Of a DNA stretch of 64,000 nt, positions 1,535-58,689 are shown in pieces. Location of the stretch: contig OY282558.1 in the NCBI GenBank assembly GCA_958295665.1, positions 353,753,034-353,817,033 of the forward strand, read 5' to 3'. A model generated the notes under the pieces. That model worked only from the letters and a program-made list of their open reading frames with translations, searched no databases and was not told the origin of the DNA. The position numbers and the translations under genes were made by a program. The stretch's first letter is position 1. Each line of letters begins with the position of its first letter. This DNA comes from Tipula vernalis (Eukaryota; Arthropoda; Insecta; Diptera; Tipulidae).

Positions 1535-2596
1535 TTAAAATAAGTGTTCAAAATGATGGCCTGCGACTTCAATGCACTTATTAATACGCATTTTCAATGA
1601 TTGTACACAACTGAGAAGTGTGTTTGGTTGAATTTCAGCACACGCATTTCTGATTCGCTCAATCATGTTCTCACGTGTTGTTGGTTCTTGTTTGTAAACT
1701 TTGTCTTTGAGATAGCCCTACAAAAAGAAATCTGGCGAAGTAAGATCTGGTGATCTGGCGGGCCAATTTATCGGACCAGCTCTACCGATCCAGCGACCAT
1801 TGAAATCACGATCAAGTACCTGACGTGCTACCAACGAATAGTGTGCAGGACAACCATCATGTTGAAACCACATGTTCCGTCTCACTTCTAAGTTCAAATT
1901 TTCAAGTAATATTGGCAGTTCATTTTCCAAAAAGTTTCGGTACATTTGACCATTCAAGTTGCCTTCAATAATGTGGGGGCCGATGAGTTGGTTGCCAATT
2001 ATTCCACACCACACGTTGACAGTCCAAGGGCGCTGATGTTCAACTTGGCGAAGCCAGTGTGGATTTTCAACACTCCAATAATGCATGTTGTGTCGATTAA
2101 CCGTTCCATGGTTTGTAAAAGACGATTCGTCAGAGAACATTACGCAACGAAAAACATTGGGGTTTTGTTGTATTTGTTCACGTGCCCATTGACAAAAAGT
2201 TACCCGATTTTGGAAATCAGCGCCATGAAGATCTTGGTGTAAAGACACATGATATGGATGATACTTGTGCCGTTTTAACATTCTCCAAACACTGGTGAGG
2301 GACAATCCGGAATCGCGAACTATTTCTCGTGTACTAACATGAGGATTATGAGTCACTGCAGCCAATACAGCAATTTCATTATTTTCTCCAGTGACTGTTG
2401 CTCTACGGGTCCTCTTTTTCGGTTGAACATTTCTATAAGTAATAAATTGTTTGATAGTACGGCCAAATGAAGCACGTGAACGAGTCCTATCCGGAAAACG
2501 TTGAGCGTAAATAGCAACAGCATTTTCAAGATTTCTGCCAGCTTCTCCATAAACCAGAACCATTTCAATTTTCTCTGGCACAGTTAAACGGTCCAT
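1535..2596 (-). pseudogene. DD41D Tc1/mariner-like transposase with one premature stop
   Basis: DDE/D transposase acting on the element's own inverted repeats. The ATG is at 2596-2594. Residues 1-140 hold helix-turn-helix type DNA-binding segments, including a basic stretch near 60-66. The catalytic core shows Asp156 (MFSDESSF), Asp247 (FQHDGCPAHYS) and Asp289 (ARSPDLTSPDFFL), with 41 residues between the second and third, a DD41D spacing. Translation halts after residue 292 at a TAG (1720-1718), where related proteins have Trp. The same frame then stays open for 60 more codons to a TAA at 1537-1535, giving a natural length near 353. It is therefore one substitution from an intact frame. A sequencing error cannot be excluded. 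Confidence 0.9.
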
Positions 2597-10649: not shown

Positions 10650-12470
10650 AAGTATATCAGAATAATTTTAGTTTTTCAATTTGTGTACATGTACCACTTT
10701 TGTTTGTTAGATTGTAGTGGTTGAAAATGAAATTCTTTCTTATTCATCTCATGGGTAATAACAATATTCTTCTCTTGTTTTATGTCTACGTTTCATATTT
10801 CGTATTAAATTAAGCGAGGCCTTGCTTACTTTGTGCATGTGTGTAACATTGTTTTACAGAAAGGATTTGCGTTCACGCGCACAACTTACTTTAATTTAGT
10901 TTTTAGTCATTTTTTGATTTTACTAGAAGCTGTTTTTGTGACTGCACAGTAAAAAAAATATAATAATTAAATATAAATATTTTTGTGTTAAAATTAATTA
11001 GTTTTTTCTATAATTAAAAACTGCAAACAGGTGAAAATTTAATTATTGTAATTAAAATTTGTGGTTTATTGCCTACAAAATAAATTTATATAAAATTTGG
11101 TTGTAATGTTCATTGCCATACCACGTGAAAAATGGCGACCATATTGGACTATTTGTTTTTGCAACAATAATTTGAAATTAGTAACTGATGCTATTATTTT
11201 GTGATTGTGATGATATAGATTGTGGTTTGTAGTAATATGAATATTAGCAAGTAAAGTAAATGGCAAAGATAATCTTTCTTAAAGGAAACGTTACATTAAT
11301 TTTAGTTATTCAATTGTTATGTACTTTTGTTTGTTAGATTGTAGTGGTTTGAAAATGAAATTCTTTCTTATTCATCTCTCATGGGCAATACAAATATCCT
11401 TCTCTCGTTCTACGGCTAGGTTTTATTATATTTCGTATTCAATTAAGCGAGGCCTTGCTTGCGTTTTTGATTTTAATCGAAGCTGATTTTGTAATTTCAC
11501 AGTAAAAAAAAATAATTAAACATAAATATTTTTGGCGTTAAAATTAATTAATTTTTGCTATAAGTAATGACTGTAGTGTAAACAGATCAAAATTTAATTA
11601 TTTTAATTAAAATTTGAGGTTTATTGTCTACAAAATAGTTATTTATAGAATTCTGTAATATTAATTTTCATAACGCAAGCAAAATGGCGACCATATTGGA
11701 ATATTTTTTGTTGCAGCGCATGATTTGGAATGGATAATTGATGTTATCAGTTTGTGATTGATATAGATTATTTTGTGAAGTAAAATTAATATCTACATAG
11801 CTAGTAAAATAAACAGGAAACATGATTTTCTTAAAGGAAACGTTATCTTAATTTTAGTTTTCCAATTTGTGATTTTGCTCGATTGTATTGGTTGAAAATG
11901 ATGAATTTCTTTCTTATTCATCACTCATGCGCAATGATTATATTCTTCTTTCTTTTTATGTCGACGTTTCATTATATTTCATATTAAATTAAGCGGTTGA
12001 AGCTTATTTTGCACATGTGTGTGTAAATGGTGTAACAGAAAGGATACGCGTGCACGCGTAGCTTACTTTAATTTAGTTGTTTTTGATTTTAATAGAAGCT
12101 GATTTTGTAATTACACAGTAAAAAAAAAATAGTTAAACATAAATATTTTTGTGCATTAAAATTAATTAATTTTTGCCATAAGTAATGAATGTAAACAGGT
12201 GAAAATTCATTAATTTTAATTAAAATTTGAGGTTTATTGCCTACAAAATAGTTGTTTATAGATTTCTGTAATGTTAATTATCATAACGCATGCAAAATGG
12301 CGACCATATTGAAATATTTTTAGTTGCAACAATAATTTGAAATTAGTAATTGATGCTATTATTTTGTGATTCTGATATAGATTATATTGTGTAGTAAAAT
12401 TAATATCTAGCGAGTAAAGTAAACGGTAAACATAATCTTCTTAAAGGAAACGTTATCTTAATTTTAGTTT
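10650..12470 (+). repeat. Three-unit diverged tandem repeat (~550-640 bp period)
   Basis: Successive units start at the shared phrase AATTTTAGTT(T/A)TTCAAT near 10665, 11300, 11855 and (fourth, truncated) 12460. Each unit repeats the same landmarks in order: GTTGAAAATG, TTCTTATTCATC, AAGCGAGGCCTTGC or its decay, GAAGCTG...TTTGT, a CACAGTAAAAAAAA block, GGTTTATTGCCTACAAAATA, and AAAATGGCGACCATATTGGA. Units are clearly diverged, so the array is not recent. It ends about 500 bp before the first exon of the SAM-like gene. A small minus-strand frame at 11066-11266 lies in the repeat and is not a gene. Confidence 0.88.
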
Positions 12471-12974
12471 TTCAATTTGTGTTTAATGCGTGATTTACAC
12501 GTTCCAACAATGTTTTTCCAACTTTTTTTGTTGAGACTTAGAGCAATAGAAAAAATTTTCTTGCGATAAAAAGAGAAAAGTATAAAACAAAAATGTCGGG
12601 CATGCTCTAATTTTTTGGTGGTATAAAATCCACGATGCAATATTTTTGATGAATAGGGCGATGATTCTAATTTATTTATCAAAATTACGACTTTTTTTTG
12701 GCTAAAATGAAAACTTTTCAAACGTAAAATTCAATTTTTAAACAATATTTTTAAAAAAATAAACTAAAAATGTCGGACATGCTATAATTTTAAAATTTTT
12801 AAAAAATACAAATAAAACGCTATAAACATTTCACAAATCGCTATTTTGATTGTTTTTGTTTCCATAAAATATACTCGGGACTTTTGCTTTATTTTTCTAG
12901 ATTGATTTATAGTTGTTATAACAACAACAGGTAATAATAGTTAAAAGTAATCGCTTCATTAGGTAACACTTGAA
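12471..12974 (+). other. Upstream region of the SAM-like gene with a duplicated motif
   Basis: Non-coding; should hold the promoter and 5' leader of the gene starting at 12975, but no clear TATA box or initiator was singled out. A ~25-bp motif, AAAAATGTCGG(G/A)CATGCT, occurs twice in the same orientation near 12589 and 12766. A minus-strand frame at 12464-12721 has no domain and is rejected. Confidence 0.45.
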
Positions 12975-15874
12975 ATGTCTAACCAAGAGGGCACAAACGA
13001 TTTATTTGTAAATAACATTTTACGGTTTAATTCTTCAAAATGTTATGATCAAAATGAACCTTACGTAAATAACGGTAATGAATTAACATAGTTTTATAGA
13101 CAATTTTGGTTATAATCATCTTTCTAATTTTAATAATTTAACTATCATTTTTTATCCTCAATTCTCTAAAACAGAGGCCGGTGCGCCAAATACATATCAT
13201 GAGCTTGATAATAGTTTAGCTAATGAGATACCCAACGCACTGCAAAATTTATTAGTTGAATGGGGACTGGAGCAAACTTGGAATATTTTTCAAAGTATTT
13301 ATATTTAATATAGTAATATTTTTAATAGCATTTATTAAACTTTTATTAATGGCCTTAGAATCAAAGCTTGATGACATAATGGATCTTAAAATTTTGACCG
13401 AATCAGATTTAGACCTAATGTTTCCTAACCGAAGTGATCTGAGCATGAAATGTAGGCTGCGCTCTAAAATTGTGGAATGGCGCCATAAACATGTAGGAAC
13501 AATATTAATTAGTTTGACAAAATTAGTTTTGTACATATCATGTTTTATTATTTATTAGGGTTTTCCTGTACATTCCTGTACATTGAGTACAACGGCTATT
13601 TCAATTGAAACGGATATGTCGATGAGCTCCTTGATAACCACTACTTCAAGCGCATCGTTGCCCTCAAATCAAGACGGAACACAGGCAGAATTTCAATTTG
13701 TATACCGTACTAAACCCTACTTTTTAATAAAAATTCTAATTATTTTTAAATTAAACGTCTATAGGAATTAAAAGAATTTCTAAATTCTGAACGGGGTAAA
13801 AGGTTTATTAATATACACAACAAAAATGGTTCTTTGGACGACGAAACAAGAAAATTGTTAACTGAGAGCATCGTGCAGGAGTTCGTGATCCGAGAGAAGA
13901 ATATGAGCGCTCTACTGCTAGAAAAAATTAGTTCAGAAATAGCTACCTATTTCACTGGTGAAGATAAGGCAAATATTTCATCATATTAAATAGTTAATAT
14001 ACATTTTATGTAGATGAGAATATATAAATAAATTAATATTTTTTCGTTATTAAAGTTACTAACTAATACCACAGATAAGATATCAGATGAATCAAGCCCG
14101 AATGATTTTGCCCGAATGAGGTTTTTTGGGTTCCAAAATGAATTGCCCACAATTTGTTCGGCTTGAATCATCTGATATTCTTATATGTGCTAATACATTA
14201 AAAATTATACAATTTACAAATTTTTAGGTAATTTTTCTTTACAACATTGCTGCTCTATATATTTTATCATGTAACACATATTTTCCTTGAAAATTCTCAT
14301 ATTTTAAAAAATTAAACAATTTACATTTTCCAGAAATATTCAATTTTTCCATTTAAATTATATAAAAACATGTGTTTCATTTTACTCTTATTGTTTTTAA
14401 TAAAAACTGATTATAAATACTATATTTATGTAGGTAAACATTTCTAAATAAATACATAAATAATTTTATCGGAAAATATGGGTTGCACTTTCTGAAAACT
14501 ATTTATATTCATAGTCAATTTCACCCTTTCTTGATTCATTATTTAGGAACTCTATTATAAGGGAGGAAAAAAACCATCGGGGAAGTTGTACAACAAATTC
14601 CGCAATAGCTCGTACAAATTGAAAAAAGTTGGTCTCTATAAAAATCAGCCTGCATCGTGTTCCTCAAACGAAACAACACCAGAAATAAACGATCACTTAG
14701 GTATAAAATATGATTTGCTAATTTGAAATTCATAAAATAGTAAGCAATATTGTTTATTTAACTTTTTATCATTTAAAAACAATTTTATCAGAAGAAGAAG
14801 TCGATTTCGAGGAAAATAAGAAATGGTTATCGTACATGCAAGCGCCGTGGGAGACCGTTGAGTTAAAATGGAAGGAAACTGCTAACGGGCGCCAGAGCGA
14901 GTTAAAAACAAGTAAAACCTTAACGGCAACGACTATCCTTAATAGCTGGCCGCTTTTAAAATCAGCCACAGCCTTTAGATTGGTAAATTTATTTATTTGG
15001 TATATACAGTACCGGACATAGAAATCTGGACACCTAAAAAATCTCAGTTTCATTGTTTGATTTTTGTACCCCTCCGAAACATACGGAAAAATTGCATTTC
15101 TATTTGCTGTCCGGGTTTCAATATCCGCCACTGTATTTATTTTGTATAAATTCATTTTCAGATCGAACTTGATTTTGACATCATTTATCCGGACAAATCT
15201 TTTAAATTATATGATAAATGGGATAAGTTTATCAGGAAGATCCCTGGTATTTTAAGCAGCAAAATTAAAAACAAAGCCGTTCTGGCAGAAATAAAAAATC
15301 TACCAAAAGACGAAGGTAATTTAATATTTCATATTATATTGAGCTAAGTTTCAATGTTAATAACTTTTAATATTATATTAATATTAACTTTTCAATTTTA
15401 TTTACAGACTACAAAAACTACAAATTGTTCCAGTACATACACTACATTTTAAAACCTTCAACAAGACTCACAAGTAAATTGAAAACAACCGTGTGGAAAC
15501 CATCAATTCAAAATTCTATAAAATCATTCGCGGTAGAAGTTGGCTCTATGATCGAACTACAGAAAATAATCGAAGAGAAAAAGCAGCATTATCTTAATTA
15601 TAACATCACGCTGCAACCATTAATTGCTGTTATTTCGGATGGTAATCATTACCAATACTCAATTATTTTTGACGGTATTTATTACAAGTTTGACGATTTT
15701 GTTAAATGTCTTGATATTTGTTTTAAAATGTTTTTTGTATTCAACTTAAAATATCCCATTGAAAGTCAAAAAGTTTGGGATTTTATTCAAATTTATCTAT
15801 ACGATATTAGTTTAAATTCGATGGTTATCCCCGAAATTAGAAGTTTTATTTTAGATATCGATAAATTAGAATAA
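12975..15874 (+). CDS. Nine-exon gene for a 554-residue SAM-like protein, first gene of a two-gene cassette
   Basis: Proposed exons: 12975-13074, 13175-13294, 13359-13492, 13559-13699, 13765-13968, 14547-14700, 14792-14982, 15162-15315, 15408-15874. All eight junctions keep frame and the sum is 1,665 nt. Seven introns are GT-AG; the fifth would use a GC donor at 13969. Residues about 54-115 look like a SAM fold (LLVEWGLEQTWNIF, then ILTESDLDLMFPNRSDLS, then RLRSKIVEWR), normally a protein-protein interaction module. Residues 119-165 are Ser/Thr-rich. A basic block with GKLYNKFRNSSYKLKK starts near 245. The last exon carries a compact, well-ordered module (LQPLIAVISDG, YYKFDDFVKCLDICFKMFF). 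To my recollection this arrangement recurs in uncharacterised insect proteins. Function is not known. The zinc-finger gene follows 200 bp downstream. Confidence 0.75.
14079..14180. mobile_element. Short hairpin MITE-like insertion in intron 5
   Basis: GATATCAGATGAATCAAGCC at 14079 is mirrored by the reverse complement ending at about 14180. The arms are about 30 bp and imperfect. It lies in the only long intron of the gene and is a likely reason for that intron's size. Confidence 0.6.
15007..15133. mobile_element. 127-bp Tc1/mariner-type MITE in intron 7
   Basis: Left end CAGTACCGGACATAGAAATC; the right end reverse-complements to CAGTGGCGGATATTGAAACC. TA dinucleotides flank both ends (15005-15006 and 15134-15135). 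It has no coding capacity. It lies wholly inside the intron, between the donor at 14983 and the acceptor ending at 15161. Confidence 0.75.
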
Positions 15875-16074
15875 TAATAATATGAAATAGTGAGGATTTT
15901 TTTTGCATATATGTTACTGTTAAATTTTGAAATATGTGTCGTTTAAATGACTTGTAATTGAAATTTTCAAAGAAAATTGTCAATTTGCCATAATAATACA
16001 TAACAATTATAATAAATATAATTCATTTTCGTGATAAAGAATTCATTTCCTTGATAAAGACACATTTTCTCACC

Positions 16075-18543
16075 ATGTTAAATTGTTCTCTATGTTCTCA
16101 GCAGTTTCAAACAACTGAACTGTATGTATCACATTTAAAATACATTCATTTTCTGAAAACTTCTGATGAGTTTAAATGCCAAACAAACTGTCCATCAGTT
16201 TTTCGAAATATATCAACGTTTAAGAGACATTTAATTAAAAAACACGAGAAAGAGGAAAATACTCTCCCGGTAAACAGTTTCATTCACACATTAAACACTG
16301 AAACCAAACATACTAATATACCTATACTTAATTTTGAGCCAATTTGTGAGGTTGATTCTGAACAAATTTTAAACGAACCTCAAGAAGCTTTGAATATTAA
16401 CATTGTAGAGTTCAAAGAAAAAATCAACAAATCGATACTGGCTTTCGTTACTGAAATGTCAAGCCATAGTAATGTTACAAACACATTACTTGATCATTTT
16501 CTAAAAAATTTAACGGATGTACTTCACGTTATGTTTTCTGAATTACTAAAACTAATTCCTTTTATTGATTCGATTATTCAACCCACAGTCGAAGAAATGT
16601 TAAAATTTTGTTCCGAATCCTTTCAAAAAACGAGCTCAGAATATTTAATATTAAAAAGTTTATCAGATTATAATTTTTATAAACCACCTGAAAAATTTCT
16701 TATTAATTCTGAAATAAAAGAAACAGTGCGAAAAGGTGTATCTGTTTTGGATACTAATAATATAGAAGGAGTTTTAATGCCTATCGAGCATCAAATAAAA
16801 AAAATGTTTGAACAGCCACACGTATTATATCAAACGATAGAAAATACTTCTAACCTTTTAGAAAAGAAAATAGATTTTACAAATAATCTTGGCAAAATTT
16901 CAAATTTTGTTCAAGGTGAGTTATGGCAAAAAAAAATTATATCTTTTAAAGAAAAAATCGTAATACCTTACCATTTATACTATGACGATTTCGAACCTGG
17001 AAATCCTCTTGGCTCGAAATCGGGAGCGCAGTCACTGGCAGCTTTTTATTATAATTTTCCAAGTTTACCTTCCAAATATGCTTCGGCTGAAAACATATTT
17101 GTTGCCATGTTTCTCAAATCAAGAGACCTCAAACGATTTGGAGTTCGAAAATGTTTAGCAAAATTAATTGAGACAATTAAGAAACTTGAAACAGATGGCG
17201 TTTCATTAACAATAGCTAACGAGATTATTACTGTATATTTTGTTCTAGGCCTTGTAATTGGGGATAATCTGGGATTGAATTCAATTCTAGGTTTCTCCAA
17301 ATCATTTAGCCATAACAAATGTTGCCGTTTTTGCAAAGTTTCTAAAATTGATATGTCGAAGCATAGTTGCGAGTCTCCTATGCTTCTGAGAAATGAGGAA
17401 AATTATAAAGTTGACGTATATAAAAATGATTACTTAGCCACTGGAATTTTGGAAGATTCTATTTTTAATGAAATTGAAAGTTTTCATGTTGTATCTAATT
17501 TTTGCGTGGACATCATGCATGATGTATTCGAAGGAATAATAAAATATGGGTTAGCTAATTCTCTTCATTATTTTATAATTGTAAAGAACTTTTTCACTTT
17601 GGAGACATTTAATTATAGATACCAACATTTTGATTTTGGTGAAATGGAGATTAATTCACGTGGAGCGCCATTAAAAATCGATCATATTAAAAAGAAAAAA
17701 TTACATGTTTCTGCTAGGGAAAGTGTGTGTTTATTAAAGTATGTTACATTATTTTTGGGAGATCTTGTTCCAAAAAATGACAGGGTGTGGAAGTACATAA
17801 TAATTTTACAAGATATAACACATAATTTACTTGTAGAATCATTTACCAGTAAAGATATTGAGTGGCTTCATAAAAACATCTCCATACATAATTTACTTTA
17901 TGAAACTTTGTTTCAGGATAACATCAAACCAAAACACCATCTCTTAACCCATTATCCTAATATTATCAAGAAATCAGGGCCTTTAATACATTATTGGTGC
18001 ATGAGGTATGAGTCGAAGCACCGTGAAATGAAAAATTACACGAACTCTACATTTTCAAGGAGAAATCTCTCACTTTCGCTTGCCAAAAAATGTGCAATGA
18101 AATTTGCTTTACGGATACTTAAAAACGATGGGTTAGGTTCAGATGCTTCTTTCATAAAATGTGACCCTTCTGAAATGAAAACAAAACCTTTCTACGCAGA
18201 GTTGAAACAATTTCTCCAGATTGATGCCATAAAAGAATATTCGTCAGCTGTATCACTTGAATTTAAAGGAACTGTTTACAAAAACAATTTCTATATCTTT
18301 AATAAACATAAAAAGGTGTTGCAAAAAATAACTGATATTGTTTATCAAAATTCGAATGTTATACTTGTTACTCAAGAAGTACACATAACTCGATATGATG
18401 ATCATTATCAAGTGTATATTACGAACGGTTCAATTATATCTGATTTATATATTTTTATTGTTCTGAACTCATCTTTTATAAAGCCAATTGTATTACATAC
18501 CTTACCGGATGGTACAAAGTGTATAAAACCAGGATTTATTTAA
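16075..18543 (+). CDS. 822-residue C2H2 zinc-finger, transposase-like protein, second gene of the cassette
   Basis: Single uninterrupted frame. The ATG at 16075 (context CACCATG) is chosen because the open frame upstream has no ATG. Two C2H2 fingers open the protein: C4-C7-H20-H25 and C35-C39-H52-H57. A Cys-rich cluster (CCRFCKVSK...HSC) follows near 420-438. Strong blocks then occur: VDIMHDVFEGI with Asp479 and Asp483, KPKHHLLTHYP from Lys618, and MRYESKHREMK from Met643 (Glu646). I recall the same blocks from a large family of uncharacterised animal proteins that I believe to be transposon-derived (TNP2/CMC- or KDZ-like); this was not verified. Aspartates and Glu646 could form a DDE/D-type site, by inference only. 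Not being interrupted by a stop in an area of dead elements implies youth or selection. Confidence 0.82.
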   Translation: MLNCSLCSQQFQTTELYVSHLKYIHFLKTSDEFKCQTNCPSVFRNISTFKRHLIKKHEKEENTLPVNSFIHTLNTETKHTNIPILNFEPICEVDSEQILNEPQEALNINIVEFKEKINKSILAFVTEMSSHSNVTNTLLDHFLKNLTDVLHVMFSELLKLIPFIDSIIQPTVEEMLKFCSESFQKTSSEYLILKSLSDYNFYKPPEKFLINSEIKETVRKGVSVLDTNNIEGVLMPIEHQIKKMFEQPHVLYQTIENTSNLLEKKIDFTNNLGKISNFVQGELWQKKIISFKEKIVIPYHLYYDDFEPGNPLGSKSGAQSLAAFYYNFPSLPSKYASAENIFVAMFLKSRDLKRFGVRKCLAKLIETIKKLETDGVSLTIANEIITVYFVLGLVIGDNLGLNSILGFSKSFSHNKCCRFCKVSKIDMSKHSCESPMLLRNEENYKVDVYKNDYLATGILEDSIFNEIESFHVVSNFCVDIMHDVFEGIIKYGLANSLHYFIIVKNFFTLETFNYRYQHFDFGEMEINSRGAPLKIDHIKKKKLHVSARESVCLLKYVTLFLGDLVPKNDRVWKYIIILQDITHNLLVESFTSKDIEWLHKNISIHNLLYETLFQDNIKPKHHLLTHYPNIIKKSGPLIHYWCMRYESKHREMKNYTNSTFSRRNLSLSLAKKCAMKFALRILKNDGLGSDASFIKCDPSEMKTKPFYAELKQFLQIDAIKEYSSAVSLEFKGTVYKNNFYIFNKHKKVLQKITDIVYQNSNVILVTQEVHITRYDDHYQVYITNGSIISDLYIFIVLNSSFIKPIVLHTLPDGTKCIKPGFI

Positions 18544-18726: not shown

Positions 18727-18848
<122 letters not shown>

Positions 18849-19345
18849 TATATGTATATATGTAATACGTATCGAAAAATTAATTATTTTTGCAACAAAA
18901 AAACGTACAAAAACGAAACGATGGTACAACTGAAATCCTAAAATAAGTTTAATTAATTATTTAAACAATAATAACTAATATTTAATAATAATCATTATTT
19001 ATATGCTTATATTGAAATAAATATTATAAATAAAAAAATTTATATTTAAATTTAGATTATAATCTGTAATAATATGTTTTTAATAGAAATCAAAAGACAA
19101 TACATATTGACAAATTAATTATTTTTGCAAAAAAAAACGTACGAAAATCGAGACGTACAACTGAAATCCTAAAATAAATTTAATTAATTATTTAAAAATA
19201 ATAACTAATATTTAATAATAATCATTTACATGCATATTTTGAAATATATATAAATAAAAAATTTTATATTTAAATTAAGAGTATAATATAATCTGTAATA
19301 ATTATTTTTAATAAAAATTAAAAGAAATTTTATTTTAATTATTTA

Positions 19346-27462: not shown

Positions 27463-28672
27463 TTAGGTGTATAACTTAGTTTTTTGGATTTTCTAAGGGA
27501 GGGCGTAACTTTTGTATTAAACGTTCTTTTACAATACTGCCCCCTGCGTTTTGAAGTTTTGACATTCCAATCAAAATTTAGTGCGTCACAATTCGTGAAA
27601 GCGTAAACAACAAATTTTTTGACATGTCGAATTTCGTACCGACAAAACAGCATTTGCGAGAAGCATTACTTTTTTGCTTTAATCAAAGGAAAAAGTCTGC
27701 TGAGAGTTTTCGTTTGCTTCAAGAAACTTATGGTGCACATGCACCAACTCAACAGAGTTGCGAAAACTGGTTTAAACGGTTCAAAAGTGGCGATTTTGAT
27801 ATCAATGACAAAAAACGTTCTGGTCAACCAAAAAAATTCGAAGATGAAGAATTGGAAACATTATTGAAGGAAAACTCAGCTCAAGCAGCCATTAGCAAAC
27901 GATTACATGCCATAAAAATGATTCAAAAAGAAGGAAAATGGGTACCACATGAACTGACTGAAGCCAACATGGAAAATCGCTTGATGGTTTGCAATTCGTT
28001 GCTTACAAGACACCGAAAATGGCACTTTTTGTCTCAAATTGTGACTGCCGATGAAAAATGGATTTACTACAATAACCCTTAACGCAAGAAATCATGAGTT
28101 CATCCAGGCGAACCATCCACATCAACAGCAAAACGAAACGAAATATTCATGGGAGTAGAGCTATGTTGTGCATTTGGTGGCTCAAACCGAACGAAACTAT
28201 TACTGGTGAACGTTATCAACAACAATTGATAGATTTGAACCATCCATTGAACGAAAACGTCCGATTCCAGCCAACAAACATCGTAAAGTAATTTTGCTGC
28301 ACGACAATGCTCGACCACATGTCGCAAAACAAGTAAAAAATACGCTGGAGGAACTGAAATGGGAAACTCTACCGCATGCTCCTTATTCACCAGATTGTGC
28401 CCCATAAGATTACCATTTGTTCCGATCCATGCAATGCGCTCTTCAAGACCAGCGCTTCAAAAACCACGATGAAATAAAAAAATGGCTCGACGAATGGATC
28501 GCATCAAAAGACAAACAGTTTTTTTTCGATGGAATCCATAAATTGCCAGAAAGATGGTCGAAAGTCATAGATAACGATGGAAAATATTTTGATTAAAATA
28601 AAATTTACCATTTCATAGAAATAAACGCGTCTTTTTGTGTGAAAAATCCAAAAAACTAAGTTATACACCTAA
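27463..28672 (+). mobile_element. mariner (DD34D) element, 1,210 bp, inactive
   Basis: Left terminus TTAGGTGTATAACTTAGTTT; the right end is its reverse complement, ending at 28672. TA flanks both sides (27461-27462 and 28673-28674). Rejoining the flanks gives aaactattaaagac, the same string seen in the uninterrupted first satellite unit near 26765, which confirms the insertion site independently. It holds one transposase pseudogene. Confidence 0.95.
27624..28596 (+). pseudogene. mariner transposase pseudogene
   Basis: N-terminal helix-turn-helix part (LLFCFNQRKKSAESFRLLQE, CENWFKRFKSGDFD), the WVPHELTE linker, and three catalytic regions: TADEKWIYY, LLHDNARPHV and SPDCAP-stop-DYHLF, with 34 positions between the second and third Asp. 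Compared with ordinary mariners of about 345 residues, roughly a dozen residues are missing before ISKRLHAI. Stops occur at 28080-28082 and a few codons later, and again just before the third Asp near 28407. Frameshifts fall near 28130 and 28285. The final block (KLPERWSKVIDNDGKYF) ends at a TAA at 28594-28596. Confidence 0.92.
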
Positions 28673-35552: not shown

Positions 35553-36846
35553 CATGGTGACTGATACGAAGTGTTACCAACTTCAGACTGTTATTGCTGT
35601 CAAACCAGTGATGACAGAACGCTCAAATTTACACTAATGACAATTCATTCCATTGTTTACAAGCGTACAGAAGCATTTTAGTGGGAAATATTCAGAAAAA
35701 AAGTTATCCGCAATGGAATTCAAGCGTAATAGTGTGATTTCTCTATATTTGGCTGAAAAATCACAGCCGCAGATTGTTAACCAGTTAAAACATCTGCATG
35801 TGAATAAAATGTTTGTGTATCGCACAATAAATCGTTATAACGATACTGGCAGCATTGCAAAACGCCATGATGGTGGACCGAAACGCACTGCAACATCGCC
35901 GTATATCATTCGGAAGGTGAAGGCCAAATAGGTTCGGAATCCGCGCCGTAGCGGCAGAAAAATGGCTCGTGAGGTGAATATTTCGCTCGAACGGATGCAG
36001 CACATATTGAAAGATCATCTTGGACTAAAGGCCTTGAAATTCCATAAAATGCATGGTCTCACCGATGCTCAAAAAAAAAGTTAAAGTGGAAGAGCAAAGG
36101 AGTTTTTACGCTTGCACCAAAGTGGCGATTTGCCGTATTTGGTTTTCTCCGATGAGTCACCGTTCGTTATTGAGCAATATGTGAACAAGCAAAACGACCG
36201 GATTTACTTGCCCGGCCGTTCTACTGAAAATTTTGACCAACGGATTGCCACTCGAAACCAAGCGCCGCCGATGGTGATGGCCGAAAGCCGTTCACCGCTC
36301 GTTTTTTTGAACCGTGGCTTCAAGATAAATCCTCAAATTTATCGGGATCAAGTGTTGGAGGGAGCGTTGAAGCCTTGGGCACAAAAACATTTCAGCCGCA
36401 GGGCCTGGACATTTCAACAGGACTCGGCGCCGAGTCATAAAGCGTGCGTCAATCAAGATTGGCTCAGAAACAACGTTCCGCGGTTCATTTCCACTGCCCA
36501 ATGGCCACCAAATTCACCGGATGCAAATTCGCTAGATTTCTCGGTTTGGGGTATTTTGAAGAGCAAGGTTGGGACCAAAAACTACCAAAGTGTCGATCAT
36601 CTCAAGCAAGCGCTTCGCCGGGAATGGGCCAAAATACCGCAGAGCCACTTTCGTGCTTCATGCAATAGCTTTGTCGGCCGTTTGAAGGTCATAATCGCGG
36701 CTAAGGGTGGCCAAATCGAAAACTGCTAATGCAATTCGAAAATTTAAATATTTGTGAACATTTTTTACTTTGATTCAATAAAATTCATCAAAAAATAAAA
36801 ATTCTGTGACGTTTTGTTTTGGTAACACTTCGTGTCAGTCACCCTG
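35553..36846 (+). mobile_element. maT-type (DD37D) Tc1/mariner element, inactive
   Basis: Left end CATGGTGACTGATACGAAGT; the right end reverse-complements to CAGGGTGACTGACACGAAGT, giving inverted repeats of about 27 bp with few mismatches. TA follows the right end (36847-36848); the left flank reads GA, presumably a mutated TA. It carries one transposase pseudogene. Confidence 0.88.
35713..36729 (+). pseudogene. maT-type transposase pseudogene
   Basis: The frame begins at ATG 35713 (MEFKRNSVISLYLAEK) with an N-terminal helix-turn-helix and a GGPKRTATS hinge. An in-frame TAG at 35929-35931 and a TAA at 36082-36084, just after a nine-A run, interrupt it; the latter lies in a short stretch read out of frame between two compensating indels. 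The catalytic part is open from about 36085: LVFSDESPF, FQQDSAPSHKA and WPPNSPDANSLDFSVWG, with 37 residues between the second and third Asp, which is the maT signature spacing. It ends at a TAA at 36727-36729. Confidence 0.9.
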
Positions 36847-47312: not shown

Positions 47313-49689
47313 AAGTATTACACCAATACGTGTAAACGGGATGCACTTTTAAGACGTCAAAACCAAGTCAAACTGAAGTGGATTTGGCTCCTATAAATAA
47401 AACCTTGTTGATAAATTTGTATTTGCTTAATGAAGATGTTGCAAGTTGGATAAGAAAATTACTGGGATTCCGTTTGTAAAACTGAAGCAAATAAAAGTTT
47501 CGTTGACTCTCCCGGAATGTGAAATTGTGTACCATAATTCCTCAAACTAAGTCATACGTAAATTGTAGCCAACCTCTCTAAAACGTAATCAAAGTACCAA
47601 GCATCAATCCATCCACATGCCGTGTGGTTAATCCCAAATAAAATCAAATAATAAATCATTACAGCTCAAAAAATTAAGGAAGTTATTTTCAAATGCTTAC
47701 AATTTATTGTATAATCCACATCATGAAAACACCGTCAATCACTTACCTAAAACGAAAGCAAAAAAATTTGTTAAAGCTAATTATTCAAAATATTGTCATA
47801 TTCAAAAATACACCAGAAATATAAAAATGTGACGTATTTATCACCATAAAAAATTGAAATAACCATCTTGTGTATTTCAGTATTCCTAACTAATTGACAA
47901 CCACGAACGTGAGAACATTTTCCATTCCCGTGTTTTATGTACGTTTGTAAGGTATACTAATCGTATACATAGACCTTGCCGCAATATTATAGAATACGAT
48001 AAAATAAAATATCGAATATCGTATCTATCTCGTCTCTAATCATAATTTATTACGTTTTTATTAAAAAAGATTTATCTTCAATTAACTAAAATTTACCACG
48101 TCGCACAGTGAATTTGTTTTACCCAAAATTTCTCTAAAAACGTATAAATACGAATAGACGTATAAATATATTTCAAATTTAAAGTGAAGAATAGGAATGA
48201 GCTAACGATGTTTTAAAATTTATTGACTCGATGCTGATTTAGACAGGACACAATATCAATTAATTATGCCAATTAATTATTGCATCTCCTTTCAAGGTAC
48301 TTTTTACGTACGTGTATATTATATTTTTATTTTGTACGCGAATGTATACTGGGTGAATTATTTTCATCAAGAGTATATATCCGGTACGTATTGTTACCGT
48401 TTGACGTTTAATTTTTCAAGTTTATTCATACTTGCGGGTAATTTCACGGAACAAAACAATATTTCTAGTGTTATTTTGGTTTGTGTTTGATCACAAAAAC
48501 GGACTCATATATCGCATAAAATGATCTCTTCAAATATTTATAATTACAAAGATTATTTTTACTAAATTTGCCTGTACGAGGGGCTACCAAAAAATCAATA
48601 ATGTATGACAACAACAAACAATAAACACATTTAAATAAGCAATAATGTACAGCATACAGCAACAACAAATTTCTATATTTCGAATTTGGTTTTTTTTTTG
48701 TATTCATATATTAGAACTTTTCTTCACTTGATAATTAGAAGGGCAATGAGATGAAAATTTCCGTTCTCGTAACCCGATATCGAAAAGCCTCCTTAGCTTC
48801 ATTATATCTCGAGATGACGAAAAATGTTACTTTCGTTTCACATTTTATAAAGAAAGCTTAAATCTAAAAACGGCTGATCCTGTAACTCATTTGGGATCTA
48901 GAGATAAATACCGACCAACAGATTGGTTCGGTCTGTAAAAATCATTTTTTTCACCAGACGATTCCGAAGGTACAAGCCTACTGAAATCCTTGAAAATTTT
49001 CAAAATTCCCGCGTCAAAATTTTTATAGCGATTTATTTTTCCAGCCAACAATCACTGGAAGCAGACGAAAATTTGTGATGGCTCCATTAAAAATTCTTCA
49101 GTTGAATTATGGTATAAGCCCAATGAAATTCTGCATGTGCAAAACAATTTAGAAACAACATTAAAAACCTTGAAAGAAACAAGAGCAAAAACTAGTAAGC
49201 AAACAAACTCCAACATTTGTATAAGATATGGTAAGTTTTTCATAAGTTACTAAATAATTACGCCCTAATATATTCAAAATTAGTCAAATACACCATATAT
49301 TAATTAGTAAACCGTTAAAAGCATATTTAATATCACCTTTTGCATTTTTCGATCTCAAATTGATTTTTTAACCTCCGAAATTGGCCGAAATTTTATTTTT
49401 GTACGAACAATAAATCACATAAAAGTCTTCTTATTGTTTAATTTATTTGGTAAGAACTAGGCGTAGGTCAGGCTTCGTTTTTGCCTCGTTTTAGTCATAA
49501 AAATTTTAAGAATTGTTTTTCGAGTTTTCTCGGTTTAGCTTGTTTTCCATATGCGGAATTTCATTCAAAGTAAATAGGCTATAACTCCTTAAAAGAGTAC
49601 TTAGATGATTTTATACTGCTCATAATTAAGATTTGTACCACTCAAAAAGAGTTTTGTAACTATTTGTTGATTTTCAATTTTAATTATAA
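47313..49689. other. AT-rich non-coding stretch
   Basis: No gene or element recognised. Frames at 48266-48490, 48471-48707 and 49052-49243 are low-complexity or overlap on opposite strands. Confidence 0.5.
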
Positions 49690-50865
49690 TTGATCGTGAT
49701 ATTGATATTGATATTAATATTGATTTTGATAATGATAATGATAATGATAATGATAAATTGATAATGACAATGACAATGACAATGACAATGACAATGACAA
49801 TGACAATGACCATGACCATGACAATGACAATGACAATGACAATGACAATGACAATGACAATGACAATGATAATGATATGGTTAATGTTAATGTTAATGTT
49901 AATGTTAATGTTAATGTTAATGTTAATGTTAATGTTAATGATAATGATAATGATAATGATAATGATAATGATAATGATAATGATAATGATAATGATAATG
50001 ATAATGAGGATGATAATGATAATGATAATGATAATGAAAATGATAATGATAATGAAAATGAAAATGATAATGATAATGATAATGACAATGATAGTGATAA
50101 TGATAATGAAAATGATAATGAAAATGATAATGATAATGATAACGATAACGATAACGATAATGATAATGATAATGATAATGATTATGATAATGCGAATGCG
50201 AATGATAATGATAATGATGATGATAATGATAATGATAGTAATAATGATAATGACAATGCTAATGATAATGATAGTGATAGTGATAGCGATAGTGATAGTA
50301 AAAGTGATAGTGGTAGTGATCATGATCGTGACATTGACCGTGATCGTGATCGTGATAGTGATTGTGATAATGATATTGATAATGAAAATGATATTGATAT
50401 TGATATTGATAATGATAATGATAATGATAATGATAATGATAATGATAATGATAATGATAATGATAATGATAATGATAATGATAATGATAATGATAATGAT
50501 AATGATAATGATAATGATAATGATAATGATAATGATAATGATAATGATAATGATAATGATAATGATAATGATAATGATAATGATAATGATAATGATAATG
50601 ATAATGATAATGATAATGATAATGATAATGATAATGATAATGATAATGATAATGATAATGATAATGATAATGATAATGATAATGATAATGATAATGATAA
50701 TGATAATGATAATGATAATGATAATGATAATGATAATGATAATGATAATGATAATGATAATGATAATGATAATGATAATGATAATGATAATGATAATGAT
50801 GATGATGATGATAATGATAATGATAATGATGATGATAATGATAATGATGATAATAATATTTTTAT
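49690..50865 (+). repeat. 1.17-kb hexanucleotide array, mainly (GATAAT)n
   Basis: Six-base periodicity throughout, in blocks of variants: ACAATG (about 49764-49870), TTAATG (about 49878-49940), ATAATG mixed with GAAAATG, then GATAGTGAT/GATCGT variants near 50270-50370, and a homogeneous ATAATG block from about 50410 to 50800. The period is a multiple of three, so long frames stay open on both strands (Met-Ile, Asn-Asp and Ser-Leu repeats); none is a gene. Confidence 0.95.
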
Positions 50866-52020
50866 TTTTATTTTTAAATTAGATTAAAGTTTAAAAAGAC
50901 ATTAAATTAAAATTAAATTATAATAGTTTAAGTGATGGATATAATGATTCGGAACTTTCGGCTAGTTTTTAAGGCAAGGGAATTAAATAAAATTTTGCTG
51001 AATTGTATGCTTTTTATTTTATTGTAAATAGTGCATAAATTCTAATTGCTTGTTATTTTTATACGTAATTAGGTTAATAAGAAATGCAGATGCATCTAAT
51101 TACTAACGTATTGTAAATGTTAAGCAAAGGTTTTTCTTACACAGATGTCAGTCGAATAAAAAATCTATATCGTCTCCAAATCTATAGTCACCACACAGTT
51201 TATATTGTCAGCTCAAAAGAATTACTATCTTGTTAGAAGCATTTATTACAACAGACTCTCAATACAACCGTAAAACTATCATGTCATTATATAAGGCTAA
51301 CTTTACTAATTTTTACAATTCAACCGAGTATTTCTCAAGTCCTGCGTTGTTGTCACCAATCTCACGATGATTCTATGTTAGACCTATTAATTATTAGTAC
51401 TCTGGATTTTTTCCAGATTTTTGTCATTGGGATGGAATAGCTAAATATGGCTGCGAACTATGTGGGTATTGTGGGAATTTTGTCATTGAGGATGGTATGG
51501 TAAAATCTGGTTTGTGTCAAATATGGCAATCAATCTCATGAAACTCTGAAATTTTTTCAGGATTTTGGTATCATGGAGATGGTATGGTCAAGTCGAAACA
51601 CTGAACTGAAATGTCCTTTTGAGTTATAAATGGTGGTATAAATGTCCTTTTACAATACTTCTAATATTTAACTTTTCGAATAAAGATAGCGCCCCATAAT
51701 GCGGTTTTTCATATTACTAATTTTGCAAAAATCTCTGCTACCAACTTTCAGACTCTGCTTCATCATAAAGTTTTCACGAACTCTAATGCAAACTCATCTA
51801 ATAACCCTGCTGTCACGTAGAAGATTGTTGGAAACCTGAAACATTTTTTAATAGTAGGTTGGTTTTTCTTTCGCCTTACTTCTCTATGCTTAATCCGATT
51901 GCAAATGTAAATTTCGTAAAGATTTGAAAAGATTTGTTAATTTCATTTGCATATTTATTCAATAATGTATCATCATGGCAATATTCAAAATTTTCTTATG
52001 CTCTATTCAAAAATTAGGAA
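50866..52020. other. Non-coding stretch
   Basis: A loose two-copy repeat near 51340-51600 (CAATCTCA, then TTTTTTCCAGATTTTTG or TTTTTTCAGGATTTTGG, then ATGG(A/T)ATGG) is the only structure seen. Confidence 0.4.
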
Positions 52021-55094: not shown

Positions 55095-58000
55095 ATGGCT
55101 ATGATTAAGATAACACAAATTAACCTTCACCATTCTAAGGCTGCTTCGGCAGCTCTACTCCTCAGGCTGACTAGTTCGGGTGAGGATGTGATATTAATCC
55201 AAGAACCTTGGATTAACAACAACAGGATCTGTGGCCTCAGAACCAAGGGGTATAAAATTATATCCTCTAGTAAGTCTGGGAAGATCAGATCTTGTATTCT
55301 TGGGAAAAATAATATTAATCTTTTCCTTCTCTCTCAATACAGCAATGGTGACACTACTGCAGTTAGCCTGGAAGTAGGCACTTGTAGATTCTGGCTAGTT
55401 TCAGCCTACATGGACCGGGAGAAGGAGGTTCCTCCGGATAACCTGGAGGAGCTGATCCGTAAAGCGGAACAATCAAAGGTAGGTGTGGTACTGGGAGTTG
55501 ATGCTAATGCGCTTCACACTATCTGGGGAAGCACAGACATTAATGAAAGAGGTGAGTCGCTTTTTGATTATTTGATGAGTACTAACCTTTCAGTGTGTAA
55601 TATTGGGCGGGAACCCACATTTATTACTAGTAACAGGCAGGAGGTTCTAGACGTGACCCTTGCCTCAAATAATATTCTTCATATGGTTAAAAATTGGAGG
55701 GTGGATAAGGAACACTCCTTTTCTGATCATCGATATTTAACCTATAGCCTCGATATTCACCCTGCTACCCGGGAAGCCTTCAGGAACCCTAGAAGGACCA
55801 ACTGGAGCAAATATGGGGAATTATTGGAGGAAATGTTACCGACGAGGGCTATGGAGCACCCGACGACCGTTGGGGAGCTGGAGGACATGGTGGCTAGCGT
55901 TACTAGCGCATGCAACCGCTCCTTTCGCGCTGCCTGCCCACTGGCTAGGCCTAGGGGTAGGCAAAAACCGGTATGGTGGTCCAGGGAACTAGGAACCTAT
56001 CGTAAGGCTTGTAGGATAGTCTTTAATAGAGCCAAAAATACAAGGGAGGCTCAGGATTGGGACTCCTATAAGGAGAAACTCGGAATTTATAAGAAAGAAT
56101 TAAGAAAGGCACAAAGAATGTCTTGGAGAATCTTCTGTGATAATATGGAAGAGGTATCCGAAACCTCCCGCCTTAGGAAGATTCTTTCCAAAAGTACATC
56201 TAGTCCTAGTTTTTTGATAAAACCGGACGGATCTTGGACAGCTTCTAGTGGAGAATCTCTGGAGCTTCTCTTCGAGACACACTTCCCAGGGAGCTTTGAA
56301 GACCTGTTGGTGCGTAGCAATCATCAGGAATCACTGTCAGTAACCACAGAGGATATCGTAACCAGAAAACGGATCCTATGGGCACTGAGGGGTTTTAAAC
56401 CATTTAAATCGGCTGGTCCGGATCAAATTATATCAGCGGAACTTCAAAACAACTCAGTAATTATTCTTCCCTACCTGGAAGCTATATTCAAAGGGTGTTT
56501 GAAGCTGGGCTATATTCCTAGGTACTGGACGGAGGTCAATGTGGTGTTCATACCGAAAGCGGGGAAAAGCTCACATGTCTATCCTAAGGACCTAAGACCA
56601 ATAACTCTATCATCCTTTCTTTTGAAAACCTTGGAAAGGCTGCTGGATGTATACATCAGAGATAAAATAGGTGCCAGGAAGTGGGCATCGTCTCAGCATG
56701 CGTACACAAAGGGTAGATCTGTGGACACTGCTCTGCACGCCTTGGTGTCTACGATTGAGAAATCGATTAATTCGAAGGAATTCTGTTTGGTGGCCTTCCT
56801 GGATATAGAAGGCGCCTTTAATAATGTGAAAGCGGAGGCAATCAAGGAGGGATTGTCATTTTTGGAGGTGGACGTTCCTCTGATAGGGTTAATCAATTAT
56901 ATGCTGGGAAGCAGGATTGTTAGCTCGAAGTTGGGGGACTCCACCTTCAAGAGGCGAGTAACTAGGGGAACTCCGCAGGGGGGGGGTTCTGTCCCCTCTT
57001 CTCTGGAACATAGTGGTAAACGGGTACTACTTGAATTGGAGAGAGAGGGTATTGGAGTTATCGCGTACGCAGATGACGTAGCTTTAGCTGTTACCGGGAA
57101 ATTCCTGGGCACGATTGTAGACGTAATGCAGAATGCGCTTACCATCGTTACGAAATGGGCTGGCAAATGTGGACTTGGTATTAACCCGTCCAAGACAGAG
57201 CTGGTACTCTTTACTAAGAAATACAAAATCCCGGTAGTTGTCCCTCCTACCTTAAATGGCACGAGACTTGCTTTTACTGATAGAGCTAGATATCTGGGCA
57301 TTATCTTGGACAGTAAGCTTAGTTGGAAGCCCAACATGTTGGAGAGAATAAACAAAGCTACTATTGCTTTGTACTCCTGTAGGAACGCCATTGGTCATAG
57401 ATGGGGTCTGAAGCCGGAGCTGGTACACTGGCTCTACACCGCCGTAGTGAGACCTGTACTCATGTACGGGGTGGGTGTTTGGTGGCCAGCTCTGGATAAG
57501 GTAACTTACAAAAGTAAGATTGAGAGAGTGCAAAGAACGGCCTGTATGCTTGTTAGCGGGGCATTGAGGTCGACACCGACAAGTGCCTTAGAGGTTATGT
57601 TGCACCTTCTTCCGGTCGACATTTTTGGCAAACAGATGGCGGCAAATACGGCTGTACGACTTGCAGCCGTCTCTCAGTGGAGGTGTCTTAGTATAGGACA
57701 CTCTACTATTGTCAGATCGTTGAAGGATGAGCTGGCGAATCTTGACTACATTAAACCTACTCTACGCTTCGAGAAGCGATTTCGGACCTCCTTCCCTTCA
57801 AGGGAATCCTGGAGGAATAAACCGTTATCGGAAACCGAAGCGTTGCAATTCTTCACAGATGGCTCCAAGCTAGACGGCAAAGTAGGAGCTGGAGTATTCT
57901 GTGACAAATTAAATGTAAATATGTATTTCTATTCGTCTCCCTGATTACTGCAGCGTGTACCAAGCTGAAGTCGTAGCGATTGAGGAGGTCATGACGTGGT

Positions 58001-58689
58001 TGAAGCATAATGTGTTATCCTCAGACGATATCACAATCTATGTGGACAGTCAAGCGGCGATCCGGTCGTTAGAATCGGTGTCTTTGGCGTCACGGGTGGC
58101 GTTGAGTTGTCACTCATCTCTAAATGAGATGGGTGAGCATTTCAACATCCAGGTAGTCTGGGTCCCAGGTCACTCGGGCGTCATGGGGAACTGCAGGGCA
58201 GATGAACTTGCTAGGCATGGTACGACTCTCCAGCTGCAACCGGAAAGGGCAAGTCTGGGGAGGCCTATCACAGCGCTGAGACAAGCACTTGGGAAGCAGG
58301 CGCTATCCTCAGCGGGGGAAAGGTGGTCTAACACCCTTACCTGTAGAGTTGCAAGACAAGTTTGGCCAAAGCTGGACTTGGGGCGCACTAGGGCATTAAT
58401 ATCCTTACGCAGACGTGAATTAAGAACGGTCGTAGGAATTCTCAAGGGACACTGCCTTTTTGGAGAACATGCAAAAAGGCTGGGTCTGGAGGCTAATGAC
58501 TTCTGCAGAAGCTGCTTGGACGAAGAGGAGGAAGAGACGTTGGTCCACTTCCTTTGCTCGTGTCCAGCATTGGCTCTCAGAAGGCACAAACACTTAGGTA
58601 AGTTCATGATGGACTGCCTCTCGGATCTCGAAAACATTAAAGTGCGGGACGTCTTACGCTACATAAGTAGCTCGAAATGGTTCCAATAG
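55095..58689 (+). pseudogene. LINE ORF2: endonuclease, reverse transcriptase, RNase H; three indels
   Basis: The ATG is at 55095. Endonuclease: Glu37 (LIQEPW), Asp136/Asn138 (GVDANA), SDH at 210-212. Reverse transcriptase: FLDIEGAFNNV (Asp570) and YADD at 658-661. RNase H: FFTDGS (Asp922), then after a break YQAEVVAIEE, IYVDSQAAIRSL and WVPGHSGVMGNCRADELA. A C-terminal Cys-His cluster (CRSCLDEEEEETLVHFLCSC) follows. The frame breaks near 57942 by one base, splitting RNase H. A hidden pair of compensating shifts (extra G in the nine-G run at 56978-56986, one base lost near 57027) scrambles about 14 residues right after TPQGG. The enzyme is therefore not functional as read, though homopolymer sequencing error could explain part of it. 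Confidence 0.9.

Follow-up and report, generated by a model that had tools for sequence, protein, structure and literature searches.

RAG1, the enzyme that cuts immune-receptor genes, and RAG2 are the classic example of a recombinase derived from a transposon in which the catalytic protein acts together with a second, unrelated one whose gene lies alongside. The CACTA/EnSpm-Mirage-Chapaev-Transib (CMCT) clade of transposases, which includes RAG1, is marked, according to PMC12730594, by a D-D-E triad, by the motifs C(2)C and H(3-4)H between the second D and the E, and by a fold of the RAG1/Transib type; its elements mostly have 5'-CA..TG-3' termini and a target-site duplication of 2-5 bp. Transposons related to CACTA (TRC), namely SmTRC1 of Schistosoma and elements in Tribolium and Aedes, carry a Transposase_21 domain (PF02992), a motif I of the form D-G ... 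W-P, a box A of the form [LVI]-D-x-[LM]-H-x3-L-G and CCC termini, as described in PMC1636069. Here we report on two neighbouring genes of Tipula vernalis (Diptera, Tipulidae) in a stretch of 64,000 nucleotides (assembly GCA_958295665.1, contig OY282558.1, positions 353,753,034 to 353,817,033 of the forward strand), which is called the window below and is numbered from its first letter. Gene 1 encodes a protein with a predicted SAM domain and gene 2 a CMCT-type transposase, and together they probably make up the coding portion of a cut-and-paste DNA transposon that belongs to the CMCT clade and encodes two proteins.

Placement of gene 2 in the CMCT clade

An earlier note on this DNA had described a nine-exon gene and an intronless gene lying head-to-tail, and its coordinates, frames and splice sites were confirmed (Table 1). 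Both genes are read from the + strand with gene 1 first, and 200 bp separate the gene 1 stop from the ATG of gene 2. It would be unreasonable to take gene 2 for a chance reading, because P0001, the nearest relative found, aligns with 100% of it at 41% identity. A Pfam scan of gene 2 returned 0 families at E<=10.

The conservation of gene 2 residues was assessed by column counts in an alignment of 93 rows. The putative catalytic residues D304, D397 and E646 do not vary in this alignment, nor do the C(2)C and H(3)H motifs, D479 and H482, and the spacing is constant in all rows, with 20 residues from D397 to C417 and another 20 from H626 to E646. The predicted model of gene 2 matches the RAG1/Transib fold; of the residues aligned with RAG1, 9% are identical. 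The triad was assigned from order, spacing and this fold match, and not from a residue-by-residue structural table. RAG1 carries D600, D708, C727, C730, H937 and H942, while its E962 appears in PDB titles; the motif order and approximate spacing in gene 2 are presumably those of RAG1 by this numbering. Gene 2 thus has the CMCT marks D-D-E, C(2)C and H(3)H together with a RAG1/Transib-type fold in the predicted model, and the invariance of these residues, in RAG1-like order and spacing, places it in the CMCT clade as judged from motifs and modelled fold.

The zinc fingers and sequence blocks that the earlier note had picked out in the second protein are present, with MHDVFEG lying within IMHDVFEG (residues 480-487), KHHLLTHYP at 620-628 and MRYESKHREMK at 643-653. 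In profile searches the two N-terminal C2H2 fingers match TFIIIA and further chains with zinc fingers, and the last histidine of the second (H57) is retained in only 56 of the 93 rows. In the predicted structure the RAG1-like core is followed by a BAH-like C-terminal domain.

Gene 1 and its predicted SAM domain

Splicing of gene 1 keeps the frame at 8/8 junctions, with seven GT-AG introns and a GC-AG intron 5, and gives a coding sequence of 554 codons plus stop. The G+C content of its introns is 0.22, against a mean of 0.35 across the three codon positions. BLASTP against seven relatives gave E-values from 6e-32 to 7e-9. Since the relatives align from residue 59 on and across exon junctions, a chance reading is unreasonable for gene 1 as well; for residues 1-58 (all of exon 1 and the start of exon 2) the basis is frame and splice sites only.

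The SAM fold that the earlier note had proposed for the first protein was upheld by way of a relative. The good matches of the predicted structure of P0121, a model with a pLDDT of only 69, are all to SAM domains. An alignment links gene 1 to P0121, and a BLASTP match that starts at residue 59 links it to P0125, so that gene 1 is predicted to carry the same fold. Pfam reported SAM neither in gene 1 nor in its relatives P0121-P0126, for whose retrieval gene 1 had been aligned with residues 1-545 of P0119. The conserved C-terminal module of gene 1 is the part located behind gene 2 in the Lucilia protein P0110 (see below), and a PDB fold search with the region of P0121 behind the SAM domain gave nothing convincing.

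Linkage and diversity of the two genes in other species

All 126 fetched proteins were searched with a profile of each gene. Gene 2 was matched by 121, three of which, from Exocentrus, Psylliodes and Lucilia and so from two insect orders, also hold gene 1 sequence. Gene 1 lies at 16-551 and gene 2 at 567-1021 in P0119 of Exocentrus, and at 5-383 and 380-867, respectively, in P0126 of Psylliodes. This order of the beetles is that of the window, while it is reversed in the fly Lucilia, where P0110 has gene 2 at 4-488 and then, at 480-613, the C-terminal module of gene 1 (E 3.3e-24); two neighbouring elements could also produce the latter arrangement. The fusions appear, from the protein sequences, to be gene models that merge neighbours, and would point to adjacency on the contig and not to a real fused protein. 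The earlier note had named adjacency of homologues elsewhere as a test in advance and had tied its reading to a nuclease-like core in the second protein. With the genes joined in these three gene models, and with a predicted RAG1/Transib fold and an invariant D-D-E in gene 2, its proposal of a two-protein transposon or a host-retained pair is supported, in that either/or form.

In another protein, P0082 of Lucilia cuprina, gene 2 is followed by a tail with a match to Pfam DUF4769 (PF15992; residues 769-836, E 6.8e-6). The SAM likeness of this tail seems weak, as the best SAM stretch of the protein reaches 7.5 bits, where shuffled proteins reach 4.0, and its whole-protein E-value was equalled by the best of 605 shuffles. 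The tail, weakly SAM-like as it is, may be a fly version of the partner gene; Pfam gave no DUF4769 match in gene 1 of the window.

Very divergent copies of gene 2 occur within single species (33% identity in Photinus, 55% in Lucilia). When a tree was built from 26 rows, the Photinus copies were split between two distant clades, one of them with the wasp Chelonus (98/99), and the firefly Pyrocoelia was paired with the hoverfly Eupeodes (99/98), so that the gene tree, as reconstructed from these rows, differs from the species tree. Both the divergent copies and these groupings speak for a transposon.

Proposed roles of the two proteins

Gene 2 would be the transposase, in which the two C2H2 fingers would bind the element ends and the RNase-H core of RAG1 type, which carries D304, D397 and E646 and a zinc site of C(2)C plus H(3)H, would cut and join DNA, while the BAH-like tail may contact chromatin. 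Gene 1 would be an accessory subunit, its SAM domain serving for oligomerisation/self-association or docking and its C-terminal module contacting the transposase or the element ends. Such a role would parallel that of RAG2 for RAG1, or of TNPA for TNPD in the plant CACTA element En/Spm, with no kinship to either partner in evidence. For the pair we infer that it binds DNA, is catalytic, forms a complex and is mobile, although the copy in the window may have lost its mobility. The division into a DNA-binding catalytic subunit and an accessory one, as suggested in the earlier note, stands for the former, with fingers and core both in gene 2, whereas gene 1 can be called only a possible accessory subunit.

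Transposon, host gene pair or chance neighbours

The odds that we give to a transposon are based on the predicted fold, the residues that do not vary and the three fused gene models. Against it stand points concerning the flanks, copies, introns, tree and linkage. Around the pair no terminal inverted repeat or target-site duplication was found above chance; the longest perfect inverted repeat flanking it measures 15 bp with low-complexity rows excluded, in a scan blind to shorter or imperfect ends. A second copy or other relative of either gene was not found in the window (tblastn, E<=1). Intron 5 of gene 1 holds an imperfect palindrome resembling a miniature inverted-repeat transposable element (MITE), whose self-inverted score of 63 exceeds the highest value among 100 shuffles, 59. 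A stretch of intron 7 (15005-15135), which is TA-bounded and has CAGT...ACTG ends with 22 of 28 end bases matching by eye, is perhaps a mariner-like MITE, its repeat score of 29 not being above that of shuffles (43). No MITE-like insertion was seen in the exons of gene 1, and the splice sites are clean; an insert in one, perhaps two of eight introns beside clean exons suits a long-resident, constrained locus. All of this, together with two intact frames where five other tested coding stretches are broken, would fit a host-retained (domesticated) pair, in which a CMCT transposase and its SAM partner were kept as genes after the element ends were lost. It is possible that the pair has this history, but we doubt it. 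All catalytic residues are retained, and no orthologous host gene is visible, because the nearest relative is only 41% identical and the gene tree is not the species tree; moreover, a lone good transposon copy would appear identical in a window of 64 kb. The tree itself has several long branches that were flagged and an uncertain fish-starfish join.

The linkage is open to a different objection, namely that each gene is a transposon in its own right, or that only one is a transposon and the other has nothing to do with it, and that they became neighbours by accident. In 118 of the 121 gene-2 proteins (117 with P0082 set aside) the profile found no gene 1 sequence within the protein, the listed gene-1 and gene-2 proteins of Brassicogethes are on two contigs of unequal size, the order of the parts is reversed in Lucilia, and the fusions are known from annotated gene models, not from their DNA. 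An accident is nevertheless very unlikely, as it would have to account for fused gene models in three species of two insect orders and for a Lucilia P0082 that continues from gene 2 into the DUF4769 tail, weak as the SAM likeness of the latter is. Large intact frames in a repeat-rich region might also suggest part of an endogenous virus, but this seems extremely improbable: no relative was confirmed in the scanned viral contigs, none was present in phage records, and a comparison of gene 2 with predicted viral structures gave nothing at E<=1e-3.

If the pair does encode the proteins of a CMCT transposon, as we prefer, the members of the gene 2 family now annotated as 'uncharacterized', 'hypothetical' or 'C2H2-type domain-containing' would gain testable names. 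A broader proposal, which we regard as unlikely, is that insects hold a second, independent two-subunit system of the RAG type, with fingers for end recognition and a BAH-like tail that reads chromatin in the catalytic subunit and a SAM-scaffold partner unrelated to RAG2, and that the pair was kept by the host here after the element ends were lost. An animal lineage that is widespread and combines the catalytic fold of RAG1 with another partner would offer an independent case in which to ask what the partner does.

Features and surroundings of the pair

Upstream of the pair lie direct repeats (10824-11315, 11463-11875 and 12002-12484) that are 82-88% alike, and downstream, between 18615 and 19328, are others that are 85-86% alike; an AT microsatellite occupies 18729-18861. 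A figure legend of PMC1636069 places a tandem-repeat region near the open reading frame (ORF) of SmTRC1, and by analogy the flanking direct repeats may belong to the element.

The window holds 24 ORFs of at least 100 amino acids, three of which belong to gene 1 and gene 2. According to the earlier note these two genes were the only undamaged coding regions. This stood in so far as five of the 21 other ORFs were tested and seem to be fragments, truncated or with a broken frame, of a long interspersed nuclear element (LINE) and of mariner/Tc1-like elements, and it is not proven window-wide. At 55095-58689 there is a nearly full LINE, whose endonuclease and reverse transcriptase share a frame and whose RNase H lies in a second ORF, with a break between the two. 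Pieces of mariner/Tc1-like transposases occur at 1718-2596 (-), 27624-28082 (+) and 36112-36729 (+), and a long low-complexity repeat at 49600-50900 gives overlapping open frames on both strands.

Table 1. Features of gene 1 and gene 2, in window coordinates.
Feature	Position	Strand	Basis
Gene 1, spliced SAM-domain protein (SAM predicted), 554 amino acids	12975..15874	+	frame-consistent splice sites, open frame, relatives P0121-P0126, BLASTP
Gene 1, exons 1-5	12975-13074, 13175-13294, 13359-13492, 13559-13699, 13765-13968	+	
Gene 1, exons 6-9	14547-14700, 14792-14982, 15162-15315, 15408-15874	+	
Predicted SAM domain of gene 1, residues ~56-118, interrupted by intron 13295-13358	13240..13492	+	
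MITE-like imperfect palindrome of ~120 bp (~14070-14189) with 7-bp flanking direct repeat CTAATAC, in intron 5 (GC donor) of gene 1	14063..14196	.	
Conserved C-terminal module of gene 1, residues 400-554, last exon	15408..15871	+	
Gene 2, CMCT-type DDE transposase (by motifs and predicted fold), 822 amino acids, intronless, ATG at 16075, stop at 18543	16075..18543	+	
Two C2H2 zinc fingers, N-terminus of gene 2 (C4 C7 H20 H25; C35 C39 H52 H57)	16084..16245	+	alignment columns, profile matches
RAG1-like catalytic core, gene 2 residues 113-685	16411..18129	+	predicted structure
Putative first catalytic D, D304	16984..16986	+	invariant, 93/93 rows
Putative second catalytic D, D397 (GDN motif)	17263..17265	+	invariant, 93/93 rows
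C(2)C motif, C417-x2-C420	17323..17334	+	invariant, 93/93 rows
H(3)H motif, H622-x3-H626 (KHHLLTHYP)	17938..17952	+	invariant, 93/93 rows
Putative catalytic E, E646 (MRYESKH)	18010..18012	+	invariant, 93/93 rows
BAH-like C-terminal domain, gene 2 residues 690-817	18142..18525	+	predicted structure only

Comparison with known systems

Gene 2 resembles the TRC elements as an animal CACTA-like transposase with a CxxC motif, and the D-x-[LM]-H-x3-L-G of TRC, as given in PMC1636069, is close to its D-I-M-H-D-V-F-E-G. In place of the D-G ... W-P of motif I, however, gene 2 has D-D-F-E, and the residue after D304 is D in 87, E in four, S in one and G in one of the 93 rows. Where box A of TRC has L, the gene 2 family (VDIMHDVFEG) has E in 87/93 rows and L in 6/93. 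Among seven relatives scanned for Transposase_21, P0107 and P0114 scored 27.6 and 18.8 bits against a cut-off of 28.6, although a precomputed table nevertheless lists PF02992 for P0107. Terminal repeats of the TRC type, starting with CCC, were not found above chance at the flanks of the pair, where shorter or imperfect ends would escape, and the results section of PMC1636069 describes no SAM partner. A classification of gene 2 among the TRC elements as DeMarco 2006 defines them was rejected, because the D-G ... W-P motif is absent; nor did gene 2 itself match Transposase_21.

With ProtoRAG and RAG1-RAG2 the pair shares a RAG1-fold catalytic protein encoded next to a second protein. Gene 1 differs from RAG2 in its predicted SAM domain, and the searches made, in which the relative's model had the low pLDDT noted above, gave no likeness to RAG2. 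The ProtoRAG genes, as PMC8289069 describes them, lie tail-to-tail, unlike the head-to-tail genes here. Plant CACTA En/Spm (TNPD and TNPA) is alike in having more than one protein, one of which holds the transposase core, but its TnpA-D transcripts are spliced from one locus according to PMC1636069, whereas two separate genes are present here. From other CMCT transposases gene 2 differs by its C2H2 pair, its putative BAH-like tail and its linkage to a SAM-domain protein. A literature search found no SAM-domain partner of a CACTA/CMC-type transposase, Repbase-type databases aside, where such elements may be catalogued. The transposase clade is already known, and what is new, as far as this search shows, is the SAM partner and the domain make-up of gene 2. 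By function the pair would be likened, by analogy, to RAG1-RAG2 and TNPD-TNPA; by membership only gene 2 would be placed, in the CMCT clade.
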